From Hellea sp. (GTDB taxonomy: Bacteria; Pseudomonadota; Alphaproteobacteria; Caulobacterales; Maricaulaceae): DNA of 33,683 nucleotides. Shown in pieces: positions 10,799-26,619 of the stretch. The DNA is taken from assembly GCA_023300105.1 (NCBI GenBank), contig JALZWM010000108.1, positions 1-33,683 on the forward strand, given 5' to 3'. Each line of letters starts with the position of its first letter. Within the stretch, counting starts at the first letter, position 1. Position numbers and translations under genes: made by a program. A model generated the notes under the pieces. The model made no database searches. It worked only from the letters and a program-made list of their open reading frames with translations, and was not told where the DNA came from.

Positions 10799-13440
10799 CC
10801 AGCCTCAGAGACATCCGTAAGCAATTTTTAAATTACTTTGAAGGGCAGGGTCACACTATTGCGGCTTCTAGCGCGCTTGTGCCTGATAATGACCCAACGC
10901 TTCTTTTTACCAATGCTGGCATGGTTCAGTTCAAAGATTATTTTACGGGCGGGACAACGCCGCCTTATCCTCGGGCTGTTACATCTCAAAAATGTGTACG
11001 GGCTGGCGGGAAACATAATGACCTTGATAATGTAGGCTACACAGCGCGGCATCACACATTTTTTGAAATGCTCGGAAACTTTAGTTTTGGCGATTACTTT
11101 AAAGCTCAAGCTATCGAGAATGCTTGGAACCTTGTCACTAAAGATTTTGGGTTTGAAAAAGAAAAACTCTTGGTCACCGTCTATCACACAGATGATGAAG
11201 CTTTTGATCTTTGGAAGAAAATCGCGGGACTTTCTGATGATAGAATTATCCGTATTTCAACGAATGATAATTTTTGGGCTATGGGCGATACGGGACCGTG
11301 TGGTCCATGTTCAGAAATATTTTATGACCACGGCGCGCATATCCCGGGCGGCCCTCCAGGGTCTGCTGATGAAGATGGTGATCGTTTTATTGAAATTTGG
11401 AACTTGGTTTTCATGCAGTTCCAAAGACATGCTGACGGTACGCAAGTTCCGCTGCCTAAGCCCTCTATTGATACGGGCATGGGGCTAGAGCGTACAGCGG
11501 CTATCTTGCAGGGCAAACATGACAATTACGATATTGACCTGTTCCAGAACTTAATCGGCTCATCTGTTGATCTCACAGGAGTAAAAGCAGAAGGGGACGC
11601 GATGTTCTCTCACCGCGTTATTGCGGACCACCTGCGCTCTTGCTCATTCTTGATGGCTGACGGCGTCTCTCCGTCTAATGAGGGCCGAGGCTATGTGCTG
11701 CGCCGCATAATGCGCCGCGCGATGCGCCACGCGCATATTCTAGGCGCAAAAGATCCGCTGATGCACCGTCTTGTCCCAAGTTTAATAAGCGAAATGGGCG
11801 ATGCCTACCCAGAGCTTGGCCGCGCTAAGGCCTCGATTGAGGCCACCTTTGAACAAGAGGAAGAACGTTTTCGCCGGACATTGGGGCGCGGGACCGCTTT
11901 GCTTAATGAGGCGACACACTCACTTGGCGATGGTGACACGCTTGACGGCGAAACAGCTTTTAAACTTTATGACACCTTTGGCTTCCCGTTGGACCTGACG
12001 CAAGATGCGTTAAAGTCAAAAGGAATTGCCGTTGATACAGCGGGTTTCGACGCGGCTATGGCGCGACAGAAAGAAGGTTCAAAAGCGGCTGGGTTTAAGT
12101 CTGGGGATATGGGCAATGATGATGTTTGGTTAGCGGCAAGAGAAGCTAACGGCGCAACAGAATTTACTGGCTTTGAGAGTTTAACCGCTGAGGATAGTGT
12201 TCATACTATATTTGCAGACGGGAATATCGTTGAAAACGCACAAGACACTGACTTGCAAGATAATAGCGTGATGTTTGTAACTAAGAACACACCGTTTTAT
12301 GCCGAGAGCGGCGGGCAAGCGGGCGATAAAGGCATAGCTAAGTTTCCTAATGGCCAAGTTGTTGTGAGCGATGTTTTGAAAAAGGCAGGTGATTTACACG
12401 TTCATATTGGAAAATTAACAGGTAAGATATCAAAGGGTGATACCGTGCATCTCTCTGTCGAGTCGGATAACCGTAAACGTACTATGGCTAATCATTCATC
12501 GGCGCATCTTATGCATGAGGCTTTACGTAGAGTATTAGGGGAACATGTCACGCAAAAGGGGCAGATGGTTGATGGAGACCGTATTCGTTTTGATATATCC
12601 CACGGCGCTGCGATAACGCGCGAAGAGCTAGGTAAGGTTGAAGATCAGGTCAATCAGGTCATTCAACAAAATGCAGACGCGCAGACACGGCTTATGAATC
12701 CTGAGGCCGCTATGGAAGCGGGTGCTATGGCTTTGTTCGGTGAAAAATACGGCGATGAAGTGCGCGTGTTATCATTGGGCGAGCCGATAGATAATGATCC
12801 GAAAGCTTACTCAGTTGAGCTTTGCGGCGGCACCCATGTCGCGCGGACAGGTGATATTGCCTTATTCAAAATCGTGTCTGAAGGCGCGGTTGCCGCAGGT
12901 ATTCGCCGTGTTGAGGCTGTCAGCGGCGAAGCGGCCAGACAGTATCTCGAAACATATGCAGGTTATACGCGCGCAGCGGCGGATACGCTAAAATCAAAAC
13001 CCGAAGATGTGCCGGCGCGCATTACGGCGCTTTTAGCTGATCGTAAGAAGCTCGAAAAAGAACTTTCCGAAGCTAAAAAAGCATTAGCTTTAGGCGGTTC
13101 TGGCGGCGCTGCGAAATCTGAAGAAATAAACGGCGTGAAGTTTATCGGCGGCGTGCTCGACGGCGTTTCAGGAAAAGACCTCCGCGCGATGCTTAATGAC
13201 CAACTCTCCGCTATTGGCTCTGGCATTGTGGCCTTTGTCGCCAAAGACGGCGAGAAAGTGGCTGTAGCGGTTGCTGTGACAGACGACCTCATCGGCACGC
13301 ATTCTGCGGCAACGCTTGTGAATGCAGGCGCTGAGAAAGTCGGCGGGCGCGGGGGCGGGAAACCGGGCATGGCGCAAGCTGGCGGGACAAATGTGGCGGG
13401 TGCGGATGATGCGTTAGCGGCGATTAAAGCCGCGATTTAG
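10795..13440 (+). CDS. alaS: Alanyl-tRNA synthetase
   Basis: Charges tRNA-Ala with alanine. I chose ATG 10795 ([11 protein letters not shown]) because family members begin here and the putative promoter lies within the longer open frame; this gives 881 residues. Class II core motifs are clear: [46 protein letters not shown] and [11 protein letters not shown]. The editing domain has HSSAHLMH and the late CGGTHV zinc and proofreading residues. The C-Ala domain ends in glycine-rich [15 protein letters not shown]. It is transcribed separately from recA. Its stop overlaps by four bases the stop of the convergent subtilase gene, so antisense interference between them is possible. Confidence 0.97.
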
Positions 13441-14651
13441 CGCTCTGTGTTGCAAATATATTTCGCATTAATCAATCCAAGGCCAAAAATTGTATCTTTT
13501 CCTTTTGGACCAAGATCTGTCGCGGAGCGCGAAAAATACTGAATTATATCATCGCGGTTTTTATAATCCTTCATGCCTAATGATGAGGCTATCGCAGCTG
13601 TGATAAAAGGCGCCGCGATAGAGGTCCCCGATATATATCTATTTTGGCCTTCAATATTGATATATATGTCAACGCCGGGCGCTGAAAAATCGACATGATG
13701 CCCTCGCACGGCTTTGTCGTAAATATCGCCTTCAACATCAACGGCTGTTGCCGCCAAGACTGTATTATAAGCGGCAGGAAATTGAGGTGGCGAATTTTGC
13801 CCTTGGTTTCCAACGGCGGCCACAATCAAAAATCCCTTGTCAGAGGCCACATCAAGGGCGGCTTCTAAAACTTTGTTTGGCGGGCCTGACAGGCTAATAT
13901 TGACGACTTTTACGTCATTTAAAAGCATCCAGTTAAGGGCTTTAAGTATGGCGGTAGGGCTTGAGTAATCATTTCCATTTTCGTCTTGTTCAACCACAGC
14001 GGCTGAATATAGCATAACGTTTTTAAGACGTGCAGGGTCAGTTAATATCGCGGCAATAGAGGTGCCATGGCGCACGGCCGTTTCCGAGGGGGCTTGCTCT
14101 ATGAATGATTTATTATAGATTTTTGCAGATGTCTGTTCTCTAAACTTTTCAGATAAGCCGCCATCAATAATACCAATTTTGACAGGCACATCACACCCTG
14201 ACTTAGGCCAGCTCAGCATTTCATTAGCAAATGTCTTGGGGGCTTGAGACGGTAAGAAAGAAACCTTAGAGCTGTTGAGTGAATATTTGTTAAGCTCTCC
14301 TACGGAGGACTTAGGCTGAAGCCTTTCAAGCTCGAGCGATGCATCCTTGGGACTTACGCCAGGAGGGCAATCAAATGTGAGCAGATAGAGGTCGAGGCCT
14401 GCTAACTTTTCTTGCTTATGGAGTGTATAGCCCCATTCCAAAGCTTGGCGTTCTAAATCAACAGCAACCGACTTACTCTTAACTGTGGCGACAACCTGTG
14501 AACGGGTGACCAATTCAGAAGATGCTTCGTTGATTGCAGGCTTCGTAATTTGAGCATTTGGCGCGCTCTGGACTTGGGGTAAGCTTTCACAAGCTGTCAA
14601 AAACAGAGCTAAAACGGAACTCACTAATAGAGGGGATTGTAAAATTTTCAT
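13437..14651 (-). CDS. S8 (subtilisin-like) serine protease lipoprotein
   Basis: A 404-residue subtilase with a lipoprotein signal (lipobox LTAC, Cys21). The catalytic triad is complete: D163 (GIIDGG), H195 (RHGTSIAA) and S344 (SGTSIAAPF). The oxyanion Asn is N282 (AAVGNQGQ). Residues about 55-130 form a compact alpha/beta region ([17 protein letters not shown]...) resembling a subtilase propeptide. It should act at the periplasmic face of the envelope. It is the last gene of the leftward locus ECF sigma, anti-sigma, beta-barrel, protease. A sequence like the ECF promoter (14677-14701) lies just upstream, and AGG about eight bases before the ATG serves as ribosome-binding site. A role in processing or sensing for the adjacent anti-sigma is inferred from context. 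Confidence 0.9.
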
Positions 14652-14676
14652 AATTAATACCTATGTCAATTCCTTT

Positions 14677-14701
14677 GACGTGCGAGACACTTAAAGGTTC
14701 A
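14677..14701 (-). promoter_or_regulatory. ECF-type promoter before the S8 protease gene
   Basis: On the minus strand TTGAACCTTT is followed, 15 bases after TGAACC, by CGTCAAAG. It resembles the other two sites of this locus (16-base spacer, CGAC) and the general ECF pattern GGAAC...CGTC. It overlaps the end of the beta-barrel gene. Confidence 0.5.
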
Positions 14702-15985
14702 ATCAAAATTAAATTCCGTCGATAATATAAAGACCTGTGCATTCGAATTAAAACTATTCGCATTATAATCTGCATATTCTAACCCAAATCGGACGCTTTT
14801 CCACTTCCCACTAAGCTCGAAGTCAATTTCTTCCCCGAAATTACTATTTCCTTCATCAGATTCAAACCAATGATAGCTTGCGCCTGCGCGAATGTCCTCA
14901 AATATTCCAATTTGCCTGAGCTTATAATTTGCAGATACCGAGAAATCACGTAAGCCTTCATCTGGTATCGTTAAAAATTGATCTGCAATACCGTTCAGCC
15001 TATGCAAAGTCCCCAAGGGCGTCTGTAGAGCTTGCCCATTGTCACTGCCAAGATGCTCAGCTTTGACTGTAAAGTCATAATTGCGATATTCCACCCCCAG
15101 CTTTGCGGCGGCATAGAGAGTAGCATAATCATTGGGATTGTCGGCAAAATCTGTTTGCCTTGCGATAGAACCGTCCCAATTTAACCCCCAATCCGTCCAC
15201 TTATGGCGTCCATTAATGCGAACACCTAATGTTGAAGAACTCAAATCTGAGACCCGGTTTTCGTCAGGCCCCGTTTCAAGATCAAGCCCATAATAAAAAG
15301 CCACAAGACGTCCTAGGGGCGTGATAACACCGTAATTTAAAATCAAAGAGTCACCATCAAATTCGCCGAGAGGACTGTCATTTCCAAATTGCCTTTGCAC
15401 ATGCCCTACATAGGCGGCATCTAAAAGGCCGGGCCCAATTTTGCGTTCAAGTCTCGCCGCGTCAAAAGTTTGCTCATTGTTCCGAAAATTCCAATGTCCA
15501 ATGAAGCGCCAATCATCCAAAGCAATTCTTTGACGACCTAAAGTGAGCCGTGTATTTGGTATGATGTCAGTTTGAAATTGAAGCCGATTAATTTCAAAGT
15601 TTTCAGGGTCAGAAATAACAGGACGGCCTATTTGACCATTGAGAGTGTCGTTGAAGTTTTCTAAAAAATTTTTAGCCCCTTCAAATTCAATTAAGGCGGT
15701 AGAGTTTTCAAAAATATTAAACTCGAACCCCAATTTAATACGCAAGGATAAAGCCTCTGCTGATTGCTCAAATGCGTCTTGATCGACCGTATGATATCTA
15801 AAGCGAGCATCGCCAAAGCTATTGATCTTAATGGGTTTAAAATCGTCTTGCCCAAAAACAGGCGCCGGCGCCGTATTAAATAGAAAGGCTAAAAGACAGG
15901 AGAATAGTAAGCCATTCGCTTTTCTAATGTGTGCTGCAAGATGTGTAAGTATCGACAAGGTTCTCTTTCGAAATGAGTGTGCCAA
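14699..15985 (-). CDS. Alginate-export-type outer-membrane beta-barrel protein
   Basis: A protein of about 428 residues with an uncleaved-length signal region (GLLFSCLLAFLFNTAPAPVFGQ) followed by alternating beta-strand pattern to a C-terminal FNFD. LGRQRIALDDWRFIGHWNFRNNEQTFDAARLE is typical of the alginate-export (AlgE-like) porin family, single-chain barrels that pass anionic polymers or other solutes. I cannot name the substrate. The longest frame starts at TTG 15985 and overlaps the anti-sigma gene by 62 bases; no good ribosome-binding site is visible there, and a TTG at 15958 is an alternative. The overlap implies translational coupling with the anti-sigma gene. Being inside an ECF operon, it is likely induced by the envelope signal that the sigma factor answers. 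Confidence 0.75.
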   Translation of the reverse strand: MAHSFRKRTLSILTHLAAHIRKANGLLFSCLLAFLFNTAPAPVFGQDDFKPIKINSFGDARFRYHTVDQDAFEQSAEALSLRIKLGFEFNIFENSTALIEFEGAKNFLENFNDTLNGQIGRPVISDPENFEINRLQFQTDIIPNTRLTLGRQRIALDDWRFIGHWNFRNNEQTFDAARLERKIGPGLLDAAYVGHVQRQFGNDSPLGEFDGDSLILNYGVITPLGRLVAFYYGLDLETGPDENRVSDLSSSTLGVRINGRHKWTDWGLNWDGSIARQTDFADNPNDYATLYAAAKLGVEYRNYDFTVKAEHLGSDNGQALQTPLGTLHRLNGIADQFLTIPDEGLRDFSVSANYKLRQIGIFEDIRAGASYHWFESDEGNSNFGEEIDFELSGKWKSVRFGLEYADYNANSFNSNAQVFILSTEFNFD

Positions 15986-16541
15986 TCATAGATAAGCAAT
16001 TTTCCTTATCAGGAAAGGACACAGTATAAATACCTAGTTTACTAGGGCCAGATATAATTTGAGAATTGTGATTGATTAGTAAATCAGACACGTCCGTAAA
16101 ATTGACATGAGATTTAAAACTTAACTGCAAAGAAACACCCGATGCCTCTGTCTCGCTCGCGAGTTGGTAATGTTTGGAGGTTTCAGAGTTTGTAATATAA
16201 AAAGCCTGCCCAATTGAAACGCAGGCGAGCGCTAAGGCAGCTATTTTCCACATCCCTCCTAAAACAGTTATGTTTTTGGTCTTTGTTTGGACGGTTGAAG
16301 TTTCAGTGTTTTTAGACTCTAAATTATCTATGCTGCGCGATAGTCTAGCCCAGCCAAATTCAAGGCCTGATGGGTCTGGCTCATCGGCTCTTGCCGCCAT
16401 AAGATTACGCTGAAACTCTATATCGGCTTGAAAATCGGGATTTTCGTTTAGATAAGCCTCAAACTCTGCGGTTTGCGCGGCCGAAAGCTCGCCGCGTAAA
16501 TAGCGAGGAACAAGCAATGAAAATGTTTCTTCATGTGTCAT
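15924..16541 (-). CDS. Membrane-anchored anti-sigma factor with propeptide-like periplasmic domain
   Basis: A 205-residue protein encoded just after the ECF sigma gene. The N-terminal cytoplasmic part (1-90) contains the acidic LRGELSAAQTAEFEAYLNENP motif common in FecR/RskA-like anti-sigma domains, without a zinc-binding HxxxCxxC. One membrane helix spans about 97-116. The periplasmic part (about 138-205) runs SFKSHVNFTDVSDLL...IISGPSKLGIYTVSF...LISKENLVDTYTSC. Its GPSxxGIY motif and beta-alpha-beta rhythm recall subtilase inhibitor/propeptide domains. It also carries two cysteines (C182, C202) that could form a disulfide. It should hold the sigma factor inactive until a periplasmic signal, possibly involving the adjacent S8 protease. 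AAGG precedes the ATG at good spacing. Confidence 0.8.
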   Translation of the reverse strand: MTHEETFSLLVPRYLRGELSAAQTAEFEAYLNENPDFQADIEFQRNLMAARADEPDPSGLEFGWARLSRSIDNLESKNTETSTVQTKTKNITVLGGMWKIAALALACVSIGQAFYITNSETSKHYQLASETEASGVSLQLSFKSHVNFTDVSDLLINHNSQIISGPSKLGIYTVSFPDKENCLSMIGTLISKENLVDTYTSCSTH

Positions 16542-16574
16542 CAGGCTGCCTTTTTAAGTCTGTACATTATCTTT

Positions 16575-16600
16575 GTCGATTTGATTGTAGAAAAGGTTCA
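16575..16600 (-). promoter_or_regulatory. ECF-type promoter between sigma and anti-sigma genes
   Basis: Minus strand: TTTGAACC, 16-base spacer, CGACAAAG. It is nearly identical at both ends to the site before the lipoprotein gene (17295-17320), with equal spacer length. It would drive anti-sigma, beta-barrel and protease independently of the sigma gene. Confidence 0.6.
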
Positions 16601-16608
16601 AACTAAAA

Positions 16609-17172
16609 TTACTTATTTAAATTTTGTAAGATGTGTTGAAGACTACGTTTTGCGTATAATATTCTCGTTTTAATCGTGCCTTCAGGACATCCTTCAAGCG
16701 CGGCAATTTCTTTATAGGTCAAATCTTCAAAAAATGAGAGATGTATCGCGCGGCGATGATCGGGTTTTAATTGCTCAACCGCCTTTCTCACAACGCTCGT
16801 CTCTTGTGAAAGATTAAATAATTCGGCAGCGTTTAGCGCGTCATCCTTTATATCAATGAGCTCATCAGAATATTTAAGGCGCGCATGTTTTCGGTTTCTG
16901 TCTATTGATTTATTTTTAGCAATCGAAAATATCCATGTTTTAAGAGACGAACGTCCTTCAAAACGATCTGCTTTGCGCCAAACCTCTAACATCGTATCGT
17001 GAATAATATCAGCCACATCATTTGGGTCTGCGAGAAATAACCGAATGAAGCCGTTTAAAGCAGGTGCATAGACTTTATAAATTTCATTCATGGCATTTTT
17101 ATTGCCCTTAACAACTCCCTCAATCAGGGCTTTATCTAATTCCCGTCTTTTGTCCGGAGCCATATGTTGCAT
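16609..17172 (-). CDS. ECF-family RNA polymerase sigma factor
   Basis: A 187-residue ECF sigma factor with only regions 2 and 4. Region 2 reads NDVADIIHDTMLEVWRKADRFEGRSSLKTWIFSIAKNKSIDRNRK, with the usual W and DxxQ-like core for -10 recognition. Region 4 has LKPDHRRAIHLSFFEDLTYKEIAALEGCPEGTIKTRILYAKRSL, a helix-turn-helix that reads the -35. It is followed by its presumed anti-sigma. Two in-frame ATGs (17172 and 17163) are possible, neither with a clear Shine-Dalgarno sequence. No copy of the local TGAACC...CGAC motif is visible directly before this gene, so it may not autoregulate while its partners do. Confidence 0.93.
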   Translation of the reverse strand: MQHMAPDKRRELDKALIEGVVKGNKNAMNEIYKVYAPALNGFIRLFLADPNDVADIIHDTMLEVWRKADRFEGRSSLKTWIFSIAKNKSIDRNRKHARLKYSDELIDIKDDALNAAELFNLSQETSVVRKAVEQLKPDHRRAIHLSFFEDLTYKEIAALEGCPEGTIKTRILYAKRSLQHILQNLNK

Positions 17173-17294
17173 GAATAGCGCACTTTATCTGCAGGTGTAA
17201 TTGTCTTCGCATAAACATGACTGACTTTGTCCTTAACATCAAGCGGGGTGTAAGCCGTTATAACTACCCCTTACTAAAATATTTTAAAAAACTT

Positions 17295-17320
17295 TGAACC
17301 TTTCCCGTTGCTCCAACGAC
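17295..17320 (+). promoter_or_regulatory. ECF-type promoter before the beta-helix lipoprotein gene
   Basis: TTTGAACC, 16-base spacer, CGACATAG. The same two boxes and spacing occur on the minus strand at 16575-16600. It predicts a start near 17328 and a leader of about 85 bases. The rest of the 239-base divergent region is AT-rich with no other clear element. Confidence 0.6.
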
Positions 17321-17411
17321 ATAGGAGGGCAAGGCCAAAATTACTCCCTTGATTTAGTCTTCTATCCACTCCCGATCTACACGATCGATAACGCATTAAA
17401 GGACATTCAAA

Positions 17412-19973: not shown

Positions 19974-21860
19974 GTGAACGTGTTGAAAAAAATATCTAAA
20001 ACAAGAGCCGGTAAAGCTACCAAGTCACCTGTACGGAAGACACTGTCATCCATGCGAAAAGCATGGATAGGGGTCGGACTGCTCAGCCTCTTCGTCAATG
20101 TCCTGATGTTGACGGGGCCACTATATATGCTGCAAGTCTATGACCGCGTCATAACAAGTCAGAGCATGTCAACTTTGGTTGTGCTCTCTATTTTGATGGT
20201 CGCCATGTATGCCTTTATGGGTCTAATGGACTTCCTGCGCTCACGTATTTTAGTGCGCATTGGTAATTATGTTGAGAGCGAATTAAGCGCGCCTATTTTC
20301 AAATCATGGTTATCTCAAGGTGTGAAGGGCAATATGAGACATGGGCAGCGGCCGCTTCAAAGCCTCGCGACTCTAAAGCGGTTCTTGACGGGCGCCTCAC
20401 CAACAACATTTTTCGATATACCTTGGACGCCTATATATATTGCCGTCATCTTTATGATTGACTGGACTCTTGGTGTCTTCGCGATATTTGGCGCTCTTGT
20501 TGTTCTTGCGATTGCAATTGCCGCTGATTTTCGTACGCGCAAACAAGAAGCTGAGTCTCAATCAGCGCGTTCAGATAGTCATGCTTTCACACAGAAAATT
20601 TATGCGAACTCCGAAGCCATCATTTCTATGGGCATGGTTGGCGATATGACTGAAAAATGGAACGGTATAAAAAGTTCTGGCGATGCTAGCGAGCTCTCCG
20701 CAAGTGATATTTCTGGCGGCGCTACGGCAGTTTCAAAAGCTTTCAGAATGTTCCTACAGTCAGCTATTCTAGGCATAGGCGCTGCTTTAGCTGTGCAGCA
20801 AATCGTGACGCCGGGCGCAATGATTGCAGGGTCGATTATTTTAGGACGGGCTTTAGCGCCAATCCAAATGGTGATTAGTCAATGGAGAGGCTTCATTCAA
20901 ACGAAAGGGGCTTATCGCGACCTGAATAGTTTTTACGAGAGCTTGCCTGAAGAAATAGAAAAAGTGGTCCTACCAACGCCGACGGGTAAAATAAGTGTAC
21001 AAAAGCTCTCAGCAGGACCTCCAGGCTCAAAGACAGCGACGCTTAAAGGTTTGAATTTTGACCTTATGCCTGGTGATGGGTTGTGTGTTCTCGGTCATAG
21101 TGGCTCTGGTAAATCATCTCTTTCACGTCTTCTTGTTGGGGTTTGGATGCCTCAGATGGGGTCTGTCAGACTAGATGGCGCGACACTTGATCAGTGGGAT
21201 AATGCTGCCCTTGGACAACATATCGGCTATCTGCCTCAAACGGTTGAACTCTTTGATGGTACTGTTGGTGAAAATATTTGCCGCTTCAAGTCTGATGTAC
21301 ATTCAGATTCTATCATCCGGGCAGCTCAAATTGCAGGTGTTCATGAGTTCATTCTAAGCCTACCAGATGGATATAGTACAAAGTTAGGGACAGGCGGTGT
21401 TATCCTCTCCGTTGGACAAGTCCAACGCATGGCATTGGCCCGCGCGCTCTTTGGTGACCCTTGTCTCGTTGTTCTTGATGAGCCTAACTCAAACCTCGAT
21501 GCTCAAGGTGACAAAGCTTTGAATGCCGCAATCCAATATATGCGGGCTCAAAACAAGACCGTCATTATTGTTTCCCACCGTCCAACGGCTATGGCGGCTG
21601 TTAATAAAGTTCTCGTTCTTAAAGGCGGGCAACAAGAGAAATTCGGTCTGCGAGATGAGGTTCTCAATGTCGGTAACCGTGTCCCAGCAGGACAAACTAT
21701 GCAGCAGTTACAACGTGCGCAACAACAGGCGCGTCAAATACAACAGGCGCATCAAGTACCTACAGCGCAGCAAATTTCCAGAGCTCAACAGTATCAAAGT
21801 CAATCTGTGAACACGGCGACTGCGATAGCAGCAAATCCATATCAGAACCAGCAGGCATAA
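19974..21860 (+). CDS. Type I secretion ABC exporter (permease/ATPase, PrtD/HlyB type)
   Basis: A 628-residue inner-membrane exporter. A transmembrane domain (about 30-310) precedes an ATPase domain with Walker A GHSGSGKSS (374-382) and Walker B LVVLDEP (D502, E503). The signature is LSVGQVQRMALARA (478-482), where LSGGQ is usual. The H-loop is IIVSHRP. Lacking an N-terminal peptidase domain, it fits exporters of RTX-type, C-terminally signalled cargo. The last roughly 55 residues form a Gln-rich tail (QQLQRAQQQARQIQQAHQ...) beyond the normal domain end. The start is GTG 19974, or TTG 19983; neither has a strong ribosome-binding site. Two bases separate it from the adaptor gene, then TolC and the putative cargo follow on the same strand. 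Confidence 0.92.
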   Translation: MNVLKKISKTRAGKATKSPVRKTLSSMRKAWIGVGLLSLFVNVLMLTGPLYMLQVYDRVITSQSMSTLVVLSILMVAMYAFMGLMDFLRSRILVRIGNYVESELSAPIFKSWLSQGVKGNMRHGQRPLQSLATLKRFLTGASPTTFFDIPWTPIYIAVIFMIDWTLGVFAIFGALVVLAIAIAADFRTRKQEAESQSARSDSHAFTQKIYANSEAIISMGMVGDMTEKWNGIKSSGDASELSASDISGGATAVSKAFRMFLQSAILGIGAALAVQQIVTPGAMIAGSIILGRALAPIQMVISQWRGFIQTKGAYRDLNSFYESLPEEIEKVVLPTPTGKISVQKLSAGPPGSKTATLKGLNFDLMPGDGLCVLGHSGSGKSSLSRLLVGVWMPQMGSVRLDGATLDQWDNAALGQHIGYLPQTVELFDGTVGENICRFKSDVHSDSIIRAAQIAGVHEFILSLPDGYSTKLGTGGVILSVGQVQRMALARALFGDPCLVVLDEPNSNLDAQGDKALNAAIQYMRAQNKTVIIVSHRPTAMAAVNKVLVLKGGQQEKFGLRDEVLNVGNRVPAGQTMQQLQRAQQQARQIQQAHQVPTAQQISRAQQYQSQSVNTATAIAANPYQNQQA

Positions 21861-21862
21861 AG

Positions 21863-23173
21863 ATGGCAAAATTACCAACACATATGCAGTATCAGTCAAT
21901 GGATAAATATCTACGCGTGAGTTACGGTAGTTTATTTCTACTGGTTGTGGTTTTCGGCGGGTGGACATACCTTGCAAAAATTCAAGGTGCTGTCATCGCG
22001 ACAGGACAGGTGGCCGTCGAAGGGAAACCTCAAATTGTTCAACATCTCGAAGGTGGCATCGTGAGTAACATCACTGTCAAAGAAGGAGATGTCGTCACAA
22101 AAGGTCAAACTGTTCTCAAATTAGACTCAACAATTTTGAATGCTAACTTGGATGCAGCACAAACAAATTACTTTGAAAACCAAGCGCTGATAAGTCGTTT
22201 GATGGCTGAGAAAACGCGGCAAGAAACAATTTTTTGGTCCGAGAGTTTGCTGCGTAGAAGTAAGTCACCACGCGTGAGGCTCGCGATGAATGGGCAAGAA
22301 CAGCTATTTCATGCTCGGCGTAATGCTCTCGAAGGAGAAATCAATCAGTTTTCCCAACGCATAGAACAGCTAAATGATCAAGACACGGGTCTTATCTCTG
22401 AAATCGAATTTACGGGTTCTGAATTGTCTCTTGTTGAACAAGAGTTTAGCAAGTTGTCTGAACTCCTGCGTCAAAATTTAATTTCTAGGAACCGCGTTAC
22501 TGATTTGGAACGCGATAGAACACGACTTAGGAATGCCGTCTCTAAGTTAAAATCTGACCGCGCAGGGGTCATGAACGGCATCAAAGAAGCTCAAATTCAA
22601 ATTTCTCAAGTTCAACGCCTTCGTAATGAAGAAGTTTTGACAGAACTGCGTCTCGCGCAAACTCAAGCGGATAATTATGCGGAAACTTTAAAGACTGTGT
22701 CGAGTCGAACAAGTTTGGTAAAAATTAAAGCGCCTGCGTCTGGCGTTGTGCATGAAATGACCGCCTCTACAGTAGGGGGGGTGATTGCACCAGGGCAAGA
22801 AATTATGAAAATTATTCCTGAGCGTGAGAGCCTTGTAATCTCTGCGCAAGTCATGCCTGCTGATCTTGATCAGGTGACTTTAGGACAGGATACAAATGTT
22901 ATCTTTTCTTCCCTTAAGCAAGATTCAGCGCCAGAGCTTGATGGGGTCGTTTCATATATCTCAGCAGACGACTTGATAGACCCGATTACCGGATCATCAT
23001 ATTTTGTTGTTGAAGTCGAGATTGCGGATAGACAACTCCCTAAGCTTAATGGCCAATCTTTGGTGGCCGGTATGCCTGCTGATATATTCATTCAAACCGA
23101 AAGTAGGTCTGTTCTCGATTACTTATTAGGGCCGTTAAAGAATACACTCAAAAAGACAATGCGGGATGGTTAA
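21863..23173 (+). CDS. HlyD-family membrane fusion protein of the type I secretion system
   Basis: A 436-residue periplasmic adaptor linking the ABC exporter to the TolC-like outer-membrane duct. It has a short cytoplasmic N-terminus, a membrane anchor at about 19-37 (YGSLFLLVVVFGGWTYLA) and a lipoyl half-motif GKPQIVQHLEGGIVSNITVKEGD. Long coiled-coil helices run about 85-285 (NQFSQRIEQLNDQ..., LSLVEQEFSKLSELL), followed by the second lipoyl half (VKIKAPASGVVHEM) and a beta-barrel domain. The family signature VQHLEGGIV is exact. It begins two bases after the exporter stop and overlaps the TolC gene by eight bases, so the three components are translated as one unit. Confidence 0.94.
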   Translation: MAKLPTHMQYQSMDKYLRVSYGSLFLLVVVFGGWTYLAKIQGAVIATGQVAVEGKPQIVQHLEGGIVSNITVKEGDVVTKGQTVLKLDSTILNANLDAAQTNYFENQALISRLMAEKTRQETIFWSESLLRRSKSPRVRLAMNGQEQLFHARRNALEGEINQFSQRIEQLNDQDTGLISEIEFTGSELSLVEQEFSKLSELLRQNLISRNRVTDLERDRTRLRNAVSKLKSDRAGVMNGIKEAQIQISQVQRLRNEEVLTELRLAQTQADNYAETLKTVSSRTSLVKIKAPASGVVHEMTASTVGGVIAPGQEIMKIIPERESLVISAQVMPADLDQVTLGQDTNVIFSSLKQDSAPELDGVVSYISADDLIDPITGSSYFVVEVEIADRQLPKLNGQSLVAGMPADIFIQTESRSVLDYLLGPLKNTLKKTMRDG

Positions 23174-24971
23174 TCGCATGATAAATTTGATGCAAAACCC
23201 GAGCGTGAGAGCGTTGATTGTTGCTGGCTTAGGTCTAAGCTTTACGGCTTGTATGGCGGAAAACTCTTTACCGCAGGTGCAAAAAAATACCGTAAATCAA
23301 GTGACGACGCCAAAATACGCATCTGCTTATCAGCCTCATAATAGAACGTCATCACCCTATGTCTTAATGGCTCAAAACAACGCCGTCCCTCATTTAAGGG
23401 GTATAGCACAGAACCCGAGAAACGTTCAAAGGGCATATTATCAAGACTACCCAACACAATCTCAAAACCAGTATGGTTCGGCGCGGCGTGTTATGGGGCA
23501 TAACATAACAAAGCAAAACTTTAGTCATCATCTTGATGCGCCTCGCGTTCATCAGTCCAAGCGTCTTAACCATCATCTTGATGAGGGCATGACGCCGCGT
23601 GGCTATTATGTTCAAAAAACTCAATCCCGAACGTCTTTAAATCAATATCAAAGGGCTTCGTTAGTTCAATCTGCTCAACAAAGTGCTCAGGCAAGTGTTG
23701 TCGCGCGGGCTAATTCAGCCACTAGAGTTACTAATGCGGCAACTACGAGATCTTCTGTCTCTACGGTCTCGCCAAATTCGATCCATAACTCATTAATTAA
23801 CGCGCGTGGTGAATCTCCACGCTTGGCTATTGAAAACTTAAGAATTCAAGAAGCTGAAGAGGGATTGGTTCAGGCAGAAGCTCTGAGTAAGGTCCGGCTT
23901 AACTTCGATAGTACAATTGGTGTTAGCCAATCTGAAACAGAATTTAATGTTATTGAGAGGACGGATGCTGATACGCGTTTGAGGCGGGCTGCAAGGATTG
24001 ACCTTTCATTGCCAATTTATCAAGGTGGGATAAATAAAGCTCAAAAAAATGTCGCGAAGGTTGGAATCAAGACCGCAGAGGCGAATTATGAGATTGTTGA
24101 GAGTGCTGTGACTGAGGAAGCTGCAATTGCTCATCTTAACGTCATTCGTGACCGTAAACTCATCCAGGCTTATACGCGTAATGTAGACCTTTTAAGAAAT
24201 CAGAAACAGAATGTGCAAGCTATGGTAAGAGCTGGTGAGAACACAGTTACTGATGAAGCCCTAATAGATGCACGGCTTGCGTCGATTGAAGTGCGGTTAG
24301 AGCAATCCAAAGCTAATCTAGCCATCAGTGAAAGTAATTATAAAAAACTTACTGGGAGTCAGGCTTCATCGCTTGTTACTGTGGGGGCCGTTAAACTTCC
24401 GAGTAGCCTTCAGGAAATTAAAGTGGCCGCACAAAAAAATAACGCACAGATTAAGGCTGGTGAAACACAGGCCGAAGCGGCTTTTCATAATATAGCAGTT
24501 GCAAAGTCTTACGGGCGACCAAAATTATCTTTGCAAGGTGTTTTAAGAACAGCTGAAGGGCAGTCTGAAACTATCAGTAGAGATTCTGCTGCTGAACTTT
24601 TATTGAACCTAAATGTACCTTTGTTGTCTGGCGGTGAAAATAAATCCCGCGTTCGTCAAGCGGTTTTAGCCCAGTCTCGCGCCTTTCTTGAAACACGCGA
24701 GTTACATGATAACCTTAACGAGAGGGTAGAACAGCTCTGGGCGAGTGTTCAATCTGCGCGCCGCAGTAAAGCGCCTAATCAAGCGCAAAAGGTTGCTGCT
24801 CAAAAAGCTTATGAGGCAATTACCAAGCAAAGAAACGCTGGCCTTGCGACATCACTTGATGTGTTATCTGTCGAGCAAACATTACTTGATGCGGAAATTA
24901 ATCTTCTTCAGGCCCAAAACTCTGAAGATGTCGCCCGCTTTCAAATCTTGGGGCTGATGGGCGCATTATAA
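23166..24971 (+). CDS. TolC-family outer-membrane efflux lipoprotein with long N-terminal extension
   Basis: A 601-residue protein whose C-terminal part (about 212-601) is a TolC-type outer-membrane duct: AIENLRIQEAEEGLVQAEALSKVRLNFDS, then the internal repeat with LSLPIYQGG and LNVPLLSGG at the strand ends. It has a lipoprotein signal (LSFTAC, Cys29). Between the signal and the duct lies an extra region of about 180 residues rich in Gln, Asn, His, Tyr and Ser. It carries a duplicated HHLD motif encoded by the 13-base direct repeat at 23526 and 23571. This segment is low in hydrophobics and probably disordered in the periplasm. The start may be ATG 23166 or ATG 23178. It completes the exporter encoded upstream. 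Confidence 0.88.
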   Translation: MVNRMINLMQNPSVRALIVAGLGLSFTACMAENSLPQVQKNTVNQVTTPKYASAYQPHNRTSSPYVLMAQNNAVPHLRGIAQNPRNVQRAYYQDYPTQSQNQYGSARRVMGHNITKQNFSHHLDAPRVHQSKRLNHHLDEGMTPRGYYVQKTQSRTSLNQYQRASLVQSAQQSAQASVVARANSATRVTNAATTRSSVSTVSPNSIHNSLINARGESPRLAIENLRIQEAEEGLVQAEALSKVRLNFDSTIGVSQSETEFNVIERTDADTRLRRAARIDLSLPIYQGGINKAQKNVAKVGIKTAEANYEIVESAVTEEAAIAHLNVIRDRKLIQAYTRNVDLLRNQKQNVQAMVRAGENTVTDEALIDARLASIEVRLEQSKANLAISESNYKKLTGSQASSLVTVGAVKLPSSLQEIKVAAQKNNAQIKAGETQAEAAFHNIAVAKSYGRPKLSLQGVLRTAEGQSETISRDSAAELLLNLNVPLLSGGENKSRVRQAVLAQSRAFLETRELHDNLNERVEQLWASVQSARRSKAPNQAQKVAAQKAYEAITKQRNAGLATSLDVLSVEQTLLDAEINLLQAQNSEDVARFQILGLMGAL

Positions 24972-24989
24972 AAGTACTCATCCCTTAAG

Positions 24990-25006
24990 TTGGCACGTAA
25001 ATTGCT
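24990..25006 (+). promoter_or_regulatory. Sigma-54 (RpoN) promoter of the RTX-like cargo gene
   Basis: TTGGCACGTAAATTGCT matches the sigma-54 consensus YTGGCACGrNNNTTGCW at all fixed positions but one. The essential GG (24992-24993) and GC (25004-25005) are exactly ten bases apart. The predicted start near 25017 leaves about 28 bases before the GTG, with the Shine-Dalgarno sequence inside. Confidence 0.8.
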
Positions 25007-25044
25007 CCTCTGAATTTAAGAAAATTTAGCAAGGAGCACATAAC

Positions 25045-26619
25045 GTGACAGTTTTTTTAAATCGAGCAGGAAATAACACTTTTACGGGAACAGCAGGTGG
25101 CTATGATCAAGTTGATTATGACGCTCCGTTATCAGAGTTCTCTATCTATAGTAATGCGAATGGCAGTGTAACGATTAGTCATCCGACACTGGGCACAGAT
25201 ACATTGGTCAATATTAATGGTTTATGGTCTGATGCAGATCAGTCTTGGTACTCAATCGAAGATGCTATTTCCCTAACAGCGAATGCACCACAAAGTAGCA
25301 CACCACAAAATAATTCACCGCAACCAAATGACATTGGCGTGTTTTTAAATAGCGCGGGTAATGAAACATTTAATGGGGTGTCTAACGACTATAACCAAGT
25401 CGATTATGATGGAAAGCTATCTGATTATTCTATTTCTCGCAATAATGATGGAACAATTTCAGTTTCTCACGCGACACTCGGAACGGACACACTTTCCAAT
25501 ATTGACGGGTTGTGGCTCGATGGAGATCAGCAATGGTACTCTACAGAAGATGCGATTTCGCTAACAGGCGGACAATTAATACCCGGACCCGGACCTACAC
25601 CGACACCAACACCAGATGCAGGTTTCGAAGTTGATGACTTTGGCGTTTTACGCGGATCTGACGGAAATGATGTTCTGAACGATACAGGTGCCATTAATTC
25701 ACTTTATGGTGGCCGTGGTAATGATACATTGAACGGTACAGCTAATGAATATTCGCAAGCCGAATATGACGGTGCTGCGTCTGAATATAGTTTTACACAA
25801 AATGCTAATGGCACTGTAACAGTTACGCATCCTACTTATGGAACTGATACTCTTTCTAACATCGACGGTTTTTGGTTCCAAGGTGAGCAAGAATGGTATG
25901 CATTGGAAGACTTAGTAAATGCTAACGCACCAGCGCCAACACCTGCGCCGACTCCACAACAACCAAATGATACAGGAACACCGATTGACGGCGTTATTAC
26001 GGGGTCTAATAATGTAAATGATTTCCTCAATGGCACAGCGGGCAATGATACATTTTTCGCAGGCCGCGGTACTGACGTCATTAATGGCGGCGCTGGTAAC
26101 GATACGCTTAACGTTGACGGCGACATCTTTGAGTGGACATTCTCTGCCAATGCAGATGGGTCTATCACGATGACTCACCCGACATGGGGCGAGAATACGC
26201 TTATCGGTATCGAGCAAATCTTGTCACAACGTTCAGGAGAGACTTTCTCAATTGATGATGCGATTGCTGCAACCAATGGCCTGCCGCGTTTCCGTCTTGA
26301 TAATGATAATGTTATCAACGGAACAAATGGTAATGATGACATCCAAGGCGGTGCTGATGTTCAAGGCTTCTACGGCGGAACAGGCAATGATGTCTACTTC
26401 GGGACTGATGGCTTTGAACAGGTCAATTACGACGGTGCACGCGCTGAGTATAACATCACGCAGAACGGTAACGGATCTATCACAGTTGATCACCCGATTT
26501 GGGGAAGAGATACCCTCAATGACATTGATGCCTTGATCTTCACAGGCGTTGAGCCTGGTGTTGGCGGCGCGCAAACAGCGGCGTTCGAATTCATCGCAAC
26601 GGATGATCTATTCGCTTAA
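25045..26619 (+). CDS. RTX-like repeat protein, probable cargo of the type I secretion system
   Basis: A 524-residue acidic protein without N-terminal signal peptide, encoded directly after the exporter genes. It is built almost wholly of five modules (starting near residues 3, 99, 201, 317 and 423) separated by Pro/Thr/Gln-rich linkers. Each module has a GNxTFxG or GGxGNDxLxG calcium-binding-like start, then a YxQVDYDG strand pair, then DGTxxVxHPTxGTDTLxNIDG. Real RTX nonapeptide motifs (GGRGNDTLN, GGAGNDTLN, GGTGNDVYF) appear in modules 3-5. No enzymatic domain is visible, so an adhesin, matrix or surface-layer role is the best guess. The C-terminus FIATDDLFA fits an uncleaved type I signal. 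The start is GTG 25045 with AAGGAG eight bases upstream. A sigma-54 promoter precedes it and a terminator follows. Confidence 0.82.
   Translation: MTVFLNRAGNNTFTGTAGGYDQVDYDAPLSEFSIYSNANGSVTISHPTLGTDTLVNINGLWSDADQSWYSIEDAISLTANAPQSSTPQNNSPQPNDIGVFLNSAGNETFNGVSNDYNQVDYDGKLSDYSISRNNDGTISVSHATLGTDTLSNIDGLWLDGDQQWYSTEDAISLTGGQLIPGPGPTPTPTPDAGFEVDDFGVLRGSDGNDVLNDTGAINSLYGGRGNDTLNGTANEYSQAEYDGAASEYSFTQNANGTVTVTHPTYGTDTLSNIDGFWFQGEQEWYALEDLVNANAPAPTPAPTPQQPNDTGTPIDGVITGSNNVNDFLNGTAGNDTFFAGRGTDVINGGAGNDTLNVDGDIFEWTFSANADGSITMTHPTWGENTLIGIEQILSQRSGETFSIDDAIAATNGLPRFRLDNDNVINGTNGNDDIQGGADVQGFYGGTGNDVYFGTDGFEQVNYDGARAEYNITQNGNGSITVDHPIWGRDTLNDIDALIFTGVEPGVGGAQTAAFEFIATDDLFA
25051..26580 (+). repeat. Five tandem protein modules of about 95-115 codons
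   Basis: Module starts lie at nucleotides 25051, 25339, 25645, 25993 and 26311. Modules 1 and 2 are most alike (both begin VFLN and end in WYSxEDAISL). Modules 3 to 5 carry extra RTX nonapeptides. Module 4 has lost the VDYDG strand pair (DGDIFEWTF), and module 5 lacks the WYxxED end and runs into the C-terminal signal. Confidence 0.75.

Follow-up and report, generated by a model that had tools for sequence, protein, structure and literature searches.

The 33,683-nucleotide contig of the uncultured alphaproteobacterium Hellea sp. analyzed here (the window) very probably carries a local ECF sigma-factor regulon whose motif promoters are confined to its own neighborhood, as its sequence and the comparison with related loci indicate. 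The sigma factor possesses regions 2 and 4 only and is encoded next to a membrane anti-sigma factor, and a common two-box promoter with fixed spacing is found before the target genes (Table 1). This provides a sharply defined ECF promoter, TTTGAACC-N16-CGAC, and a regulon for a lineage of sigma factors of which no experimental account was found in the literature searched, together with an apparent feedback design in which the inhibitor is a target and the sigma factor is not.

Table 1. Genes, promoter motifs, and protein domain of the sigma-factor module, with positions numbered along the whole window.
Feature	Position	Strand	Evidence and context
S8 subtilase lipoprotein	13437..14651	-	Pfam Peptidase_S8 1.2e-24; own prodomain at residues 48-121; triad D163, H195, S344
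Promoter motif TTGAACC-N15-CGTCA	14676..14702	-	before S8 protease; 23.6 bits
Outer-membrane porin (Alginate_exp)	14699..15985	-	Pfam PF13372 3.2e-09
Anti-sigma factor, 205 aa	15924..16541	-	NCBIfam antisigma 5.4e-06, below cut-off; zf-HC2 weak; AF2 model
Anti-sigma periplasmic domain, residues 135-205	15927..16139	-	beta-alpha-beta-beta-alpha-beta in the AF2 model, pLDDT about 83-89
Promoter motif TTTGAACC-N16-CGACA	16574..16602	-	immediately follows the sigma stop codon; upstream of anti-sigma/porin operon; 30.3 bits
ECF sigma factor, 187 aa	16609..17172	-	Pfam Sigma70_r2 2.3e-15, Sigma70_r4_2 1.1e-12; no motif upstream
Promoter motif TTTGAACC-N16-CGACA	17293..17321	+	before lipoprotein; 25.4 bits
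Predicted surface lipoprotein, 525 aa	17412..18989	+	beta-helix-like by reading; no family match

The three motif copies in the window are genuine, and their number greatly exceeds chance expectation. A pattern search for TGAACC-N15/16-CGWC across the whole window returned exact matches at 14677-14701 (minus strand), 16575-16600 (minus strand), and 17295-17320 (plus strand) and no further match elsewhere, and dinucleotide shuffles of the window contained a mean of 0.38 matches, with none of 100 shuffles reaching three. These are the core coordinates reported by a first-pass annotation of this DNA; the full strings that it quoted are also present, but extend one or two bases past those coordinates, and the boxes are shared as it proposed, whereas the spacers that it regarded as unrelated all start with TTT, a stretch weakly conserved in relatives. 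A weight matrix trained on 28 sites from relatives, with the window excluded, ranked the three sites first to third (scores in Table 1), the next-best score in the window being 13.3 bits.

The same motif was sought by pattern searches in the host genome (2,427,468 bases in 167 contigs, the window being contig C108). Eight matches to TTGAACC-N15-16-CGWCA were found genome-wide versus two for a reversed control; the five lying outside the window are located within genes or against gene sense, and the window's three are the only strong matches at promoters in the 2.43 Mb genome. These counts imply that the motif is not a background word strewn over the genome. When two mismatches were allowed, 70 matches were obtained versus 116 in the reversed control; as this is no excess, there is no sign of further copies or targets elsewhere in this genome, and an extension of the regulon across it was rejected.

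Searches with the anti-sigma protein and the porin identified 11 further Caulobacterales loci harboring genes for sigma factor, anti-sigma factor, and Alginate_exp porin, plus the S8 lipoprotein protease where the contig reaches that far. By hand tally, the first-pass pattern matches 29 times in these loci (about 175 kb) and 8 times in 43 loci holding only a relative of the porin (roughly 800 kb). Across ten related genomes, 11 of the 12 matches to TTGAACC-N16-CGACWWA fall within the module, with a control pattern giving 0. With the window included, and with relatives' sites scored by a matrix partly trained on those same loci, the motif precedes the anti-sigma gene in 12/12 loci (weakly in L107, 11.9 bits), the S8 gene in 11/11, and the sigma gene in 0/12, so that the earlier statement that the sigma gene lacks a copy is correct for the window and holds throughout the set. 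In L062 and L106-L111 the anti-sigma gene is inverted relative to the sigma gene and the motif moves with it, implying that it does not simply mark where the sigma gene ends. This distribution, before the anti-sigma and S8 genes and never before the sigma gene, points to an ECF regulon with feedback onto the anti-sigma factor but none onto the sigma factor. Sequence and comparison document the gene set, along with the presence, placement, and conservation of the motifs that accompany it.

On the other hand, in several more distant relatives, among them L188 and L191, the motif is located before the sigma gene instead, which shows that the placement at the anti-sigma gene alone is not universal. 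More distant loci of this kind also include L193, L194, L196, L199, L201, and L208, where TGAACC-N16-CGAC stands before the sigma gene and the point of autoregulation differs.

From these arrangements we infer that the window sigma factor reads the motif promoters and that the circuit behaves as a feedback loop. Expression of the sigma factor would depend on a different promoter, and the anti-sigma factor would keep the sigma factor at the membrane until an envelope signal inactivates the anti-sigma factor. Once free, the sigma factor would transcribe three units from their TTTGAACC-N16-CGACA promoters: the operon of anti-sigma factor and porin, the gene for the S8 protease lipoprotein, and the gene for the surface lipoprotein. 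Newly made anti-sigma factor would then close the loop; because the anti-sigma factor is a target and the sigma factor is not, the output would be self-limiting, with negative feedback and without self-amplification.

The set of genes assigned to the regulon by the first-pass annotation is supported in the window but proved to be wider in relatives, where RTX/CHRD, type I secretion, and autotransporter genes, among others, join it. In L060 the motif lies upstream of two genes, one for an RTX protein, after which comes a large RTX/CHRD protein, and one for a type I secretion ABC protein. In L061 it precedes a type I secretion ABC gene as well as the gene for a large RTX/CHRD protein. L110 has it before an autotransporter gene and a gene for a YceI-domain protein, L108 before the gene for a beta-barrel protein, and L106 and L109 before a second sigma gene, of the ECF26 clade. 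Orthologues of the window lipoprotein (74-75% identical) have the motif upstream in G035 and G054 and lack it in G051. The G054 orthologue (74%) is located on a different contig from the sigma locus and carries TTGAACT-N16-CGACTTA, at 21 bits; for G051, no site was found upstream of the orthologue and the anti-sigma search detected no module.

The circuit is of a known kind, that of ECF sigma factor, anti-sigma factor, and serine protease, and the feature most worth testing in it is the propeptide-like sensor. The window anti-sigma factor is a single-pass protein with a helical, zf-HC2-like N-terminal domain in which zinc ligands are not apparent, a transmembrane helix at about residues 97-118, and a periplasmic domain that resembles a subtilase prodomain, a character overlooked in the first-pass annotation. 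According to the AF2 model, this domain has the same topology as the fervidolysin prodomain (Pfam Fervidolysin_NPro-like, PF22148, a subtilase prodomain family) and the stand-alone inhibitor POIA1; unlike these, it is part of an anti-sigma factor, whose periplasmic end it makes up. PF22148 did not match the window protein in a Pfam search. Its cut-off of 21 bits was passed by four related anti-sigma factors (G357, 25.4 bits; G254, 29.9; G661, 24.7; G451, 21.4), whose loci are L112, L113, L182, and L185, and a profile comparison between the window-type domain and the G357/G254/Sphingomonas-type domain gave a match of 97.3% (E 1.8e-11, 59 columns).

A structure search with the anti-sigma factor returned subtilase propeptides among its matches (EpiP, POIA1, and the BPN' prosegment). 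As unrelated ferredoxin-like folds score equally in that search, the fold alone is not diagnostic, and the fold search of the anti-sigma factor alone was rejected as proof of a prodomain. A sequence search of the PDB with this protein gave weak matches only, to pilins and other unrelated chains. Profile comparison of the anti-sigma domain with the prodomain that the S8 protein itself carries detected no homology at the sequence level. No description of a propeptide-type anti-sigma factor was found in the literature searched, the main ECF reclassification paper falling outside its scope.

The protease itself is a member of peptidase family S8, with the catalytic Asp, His, and Ser intact and invariant in the alignment and with a subtilisin fold (pro-subtilisin structure match, 1.3e-14); its assignment as a lipoprotein follows from a lipobox, LTAC, read from the sequence. 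When the prodomain-type domain alone was searched in 398 genomes of the phylum, 29 loci besides the window were fetched, 25 of which, from 15 genera, contain an S8 gene within the fetched 1.5 kb and an ECF sigma gene. As a control, related anti-sigma factors without a prodomain-like domain were inspected, and an S8 gene was found next door in 13/18 of their loci. A linkage of S8 specific to prodomain-type anti-sigma factors was consequently rejected: the S8 link is independent of the domain and belongs to a broader set of sigma/anti-sigma systems, of which the prodomain-like sensor is one version.

The same trio of sigma, anti-sigma, and S8 genes is present on the Sphingomonas/Sphingobium plasmids pR1a and pTomTYG65a, where the anti-sigma factor has the same prodomain-like periplasmic domain as that of the window. 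This set differs in that its sigma factor belongs to a separate clade, its anti-sigma factor retains the zf-HC2 zinc finger, its anti-sigma and S8 genes are adjacent or overlapping, and pR1a has a small porin annotated as TorF-type. A culturable Sphingomonas holds a related set on a plasmid, and the pairing of a propeptide-like anti-sigma domain with a subtilase represents a concrete candidate sensing mechanism that recurs across Pseudomonadota.

Anti-sigma factors are known to be subject to regulated proteolysis, as in the RseA/DegS, RsiW/PrsW, and RsiV/signal peptidase systems. The window anti-sigma factor is likewise a single-pass protein with a periplasmic sensor domain, which makes release by proteolysis plausible; unlike in the RseA/DegS-type systems, the putative partner protease is a subtilase lipoprotein from the same locus. 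The most likely signaling step, to which we give somewhat less than an even chance, would be binding or cleavage of the anti-sigma factor's prodomain-like domain by the S8 subtilase, coupling free protease activity to sigma release or shut-off. A more tentative extension of this idea is that the sensor may be a propeptide captured from a subtilase, with the co-regulated S8 lipoprotein as its direct partner, in which case surface subtilase activity or occupancy would be read straight into transcription. Standing level with the direct interaction is the alternative that the protease is an output only, which would mature or trim co-regulated surface and secreted proteins while site-1/site-2 proteases or some other signal inactivate the anti-sigma factor. 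The S8 gene is itself a motif target, as are the RTX/CHRD, type I secretion, autotransporter, and barrel protein genes in relatives, and S8 proteases also accompany anti-sigma factors without the prodomain-like domain, both of which are consistent with a role as output; such a role leaves the likeness of the anti-sigma sensor to a subtilase propeptide unexplained.

The first-pass annotation had united sigma factor, anti-sigma factor, porin, protease, and lipoprotein in a single response. For the anti-sigma, S8, and lipoprotein genes this is supported through the motif, by its conserved positions, its near-absence elsewhere, and its presence before the G054 orthologue, whereas the porin belongs by operon only. 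The porin and anti-sigma genes of the window share 62 bases and would be co-transcribed; in none of the 12 loci does the porin gene have a motif of its own. Its retention in 12/12 loci despite this, and the lack of a motif link in seven divergent loci, could be read as signs that the porin belongs to the signal input, in the manner of FecA for FecR, rather than being an output of the regulon; we regard this as unlikely, given that in the window and in L058-L061 the porin gene is the next gene after the anti-sigma gene on the same strand, and that the protein belongs to the Alginate_exp family and is not a TonB-dependent receptor.

In its gene kinds the module is similar to the ECF26 system RpoE6-EcfR6-SMa0142 of Sinorhizobium meliloti, which combines an ECF sigma factor, a membrane anti-sigma factor, and an S8 serine protease gene as the main target, and in which the 3' end of the sigma gene contains a sigma-dependent promoter for the anti-sigma gene (PMC6180224). 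Moreover, a serine protease gene in the locus, which is common but not universal in ECF26, is present in the window, and the S8 proteases of both systems are related. That the window set is an ECF26 system with a drifted promoter is nevertheless very improbable. In a sigma tree that included S. meliloti RpoE6, S8-linked rhizobial sigma factors (ECF26), ChrR-type sigma factors, and others, a small reference set, the window sigma factor and its 11 relatives grouped in a clade of their own (99/97), separate from the ECF26 side (100/100). The promoter of the window module is TTTGAACC/CGACA and not of the GGAATA/CGTT type; GGAATA-N15/16-CGTT, the ECF26 promoter, was observed together with an ECF26-like layout on plasmids of Agrobacterium and Rhizobium. 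The anti-sigma factors of the two systems also have different periplasmic domains, no Alginate_exp porin was seen beside the ECF26 system, and two loci hold one sigma factor of each kind. ECF26 membership of the window sigma factor was rejected on the tree, with its small reference set, and on promoter type.

The second ECF sigma gene in those two loci (L106, 12586-13074; L109, 4869-5390), of the ECF26 clade, is located directly after the S8 gene with the TTGAACC motif before it, and no second anti-sigma gene was recognized after it. A sigma cascade joining two S8-associated lineages is possible.

That the shared boxes arose by chance or serve another sigma factor of the cell is the least probable reading, for although the pairing of sigma factor and promoter is a predicted one, the motif tracks the module, as opposed to the remainder of the genomes, in the shuffles, the matrix ranking, the genome counts, the ten related genomes, and the 12 loci alike.

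Some observations concern the surroundings of the module. Orthologues of the lipoprotein in three genomes, all from other genera, are 74-75% identical to it, compared with 30-54% for the rest of the module, a level of identity that suggests unusual constraint or transfer. Between 19162 and 19755 the window contains a 197-aa open frame without a family match, possibly no gene. Positions 19974-26619 hold all components of a type I secretion system (PrtD-type ABC, HlyD, and outer-membrane factor) and, after them, an RTX protein; the window's type I secretion and RTX genes were rejected as motif targets, the matrix scan giving no site. ABC/HlyD genes homologous to those of the window follow a motif site in L060 and L061. 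CHRD-domain proteins are encoded in or beside the regulon in L060 (6126-10439), L061 (12553-17967), and L106 (13172-13738).
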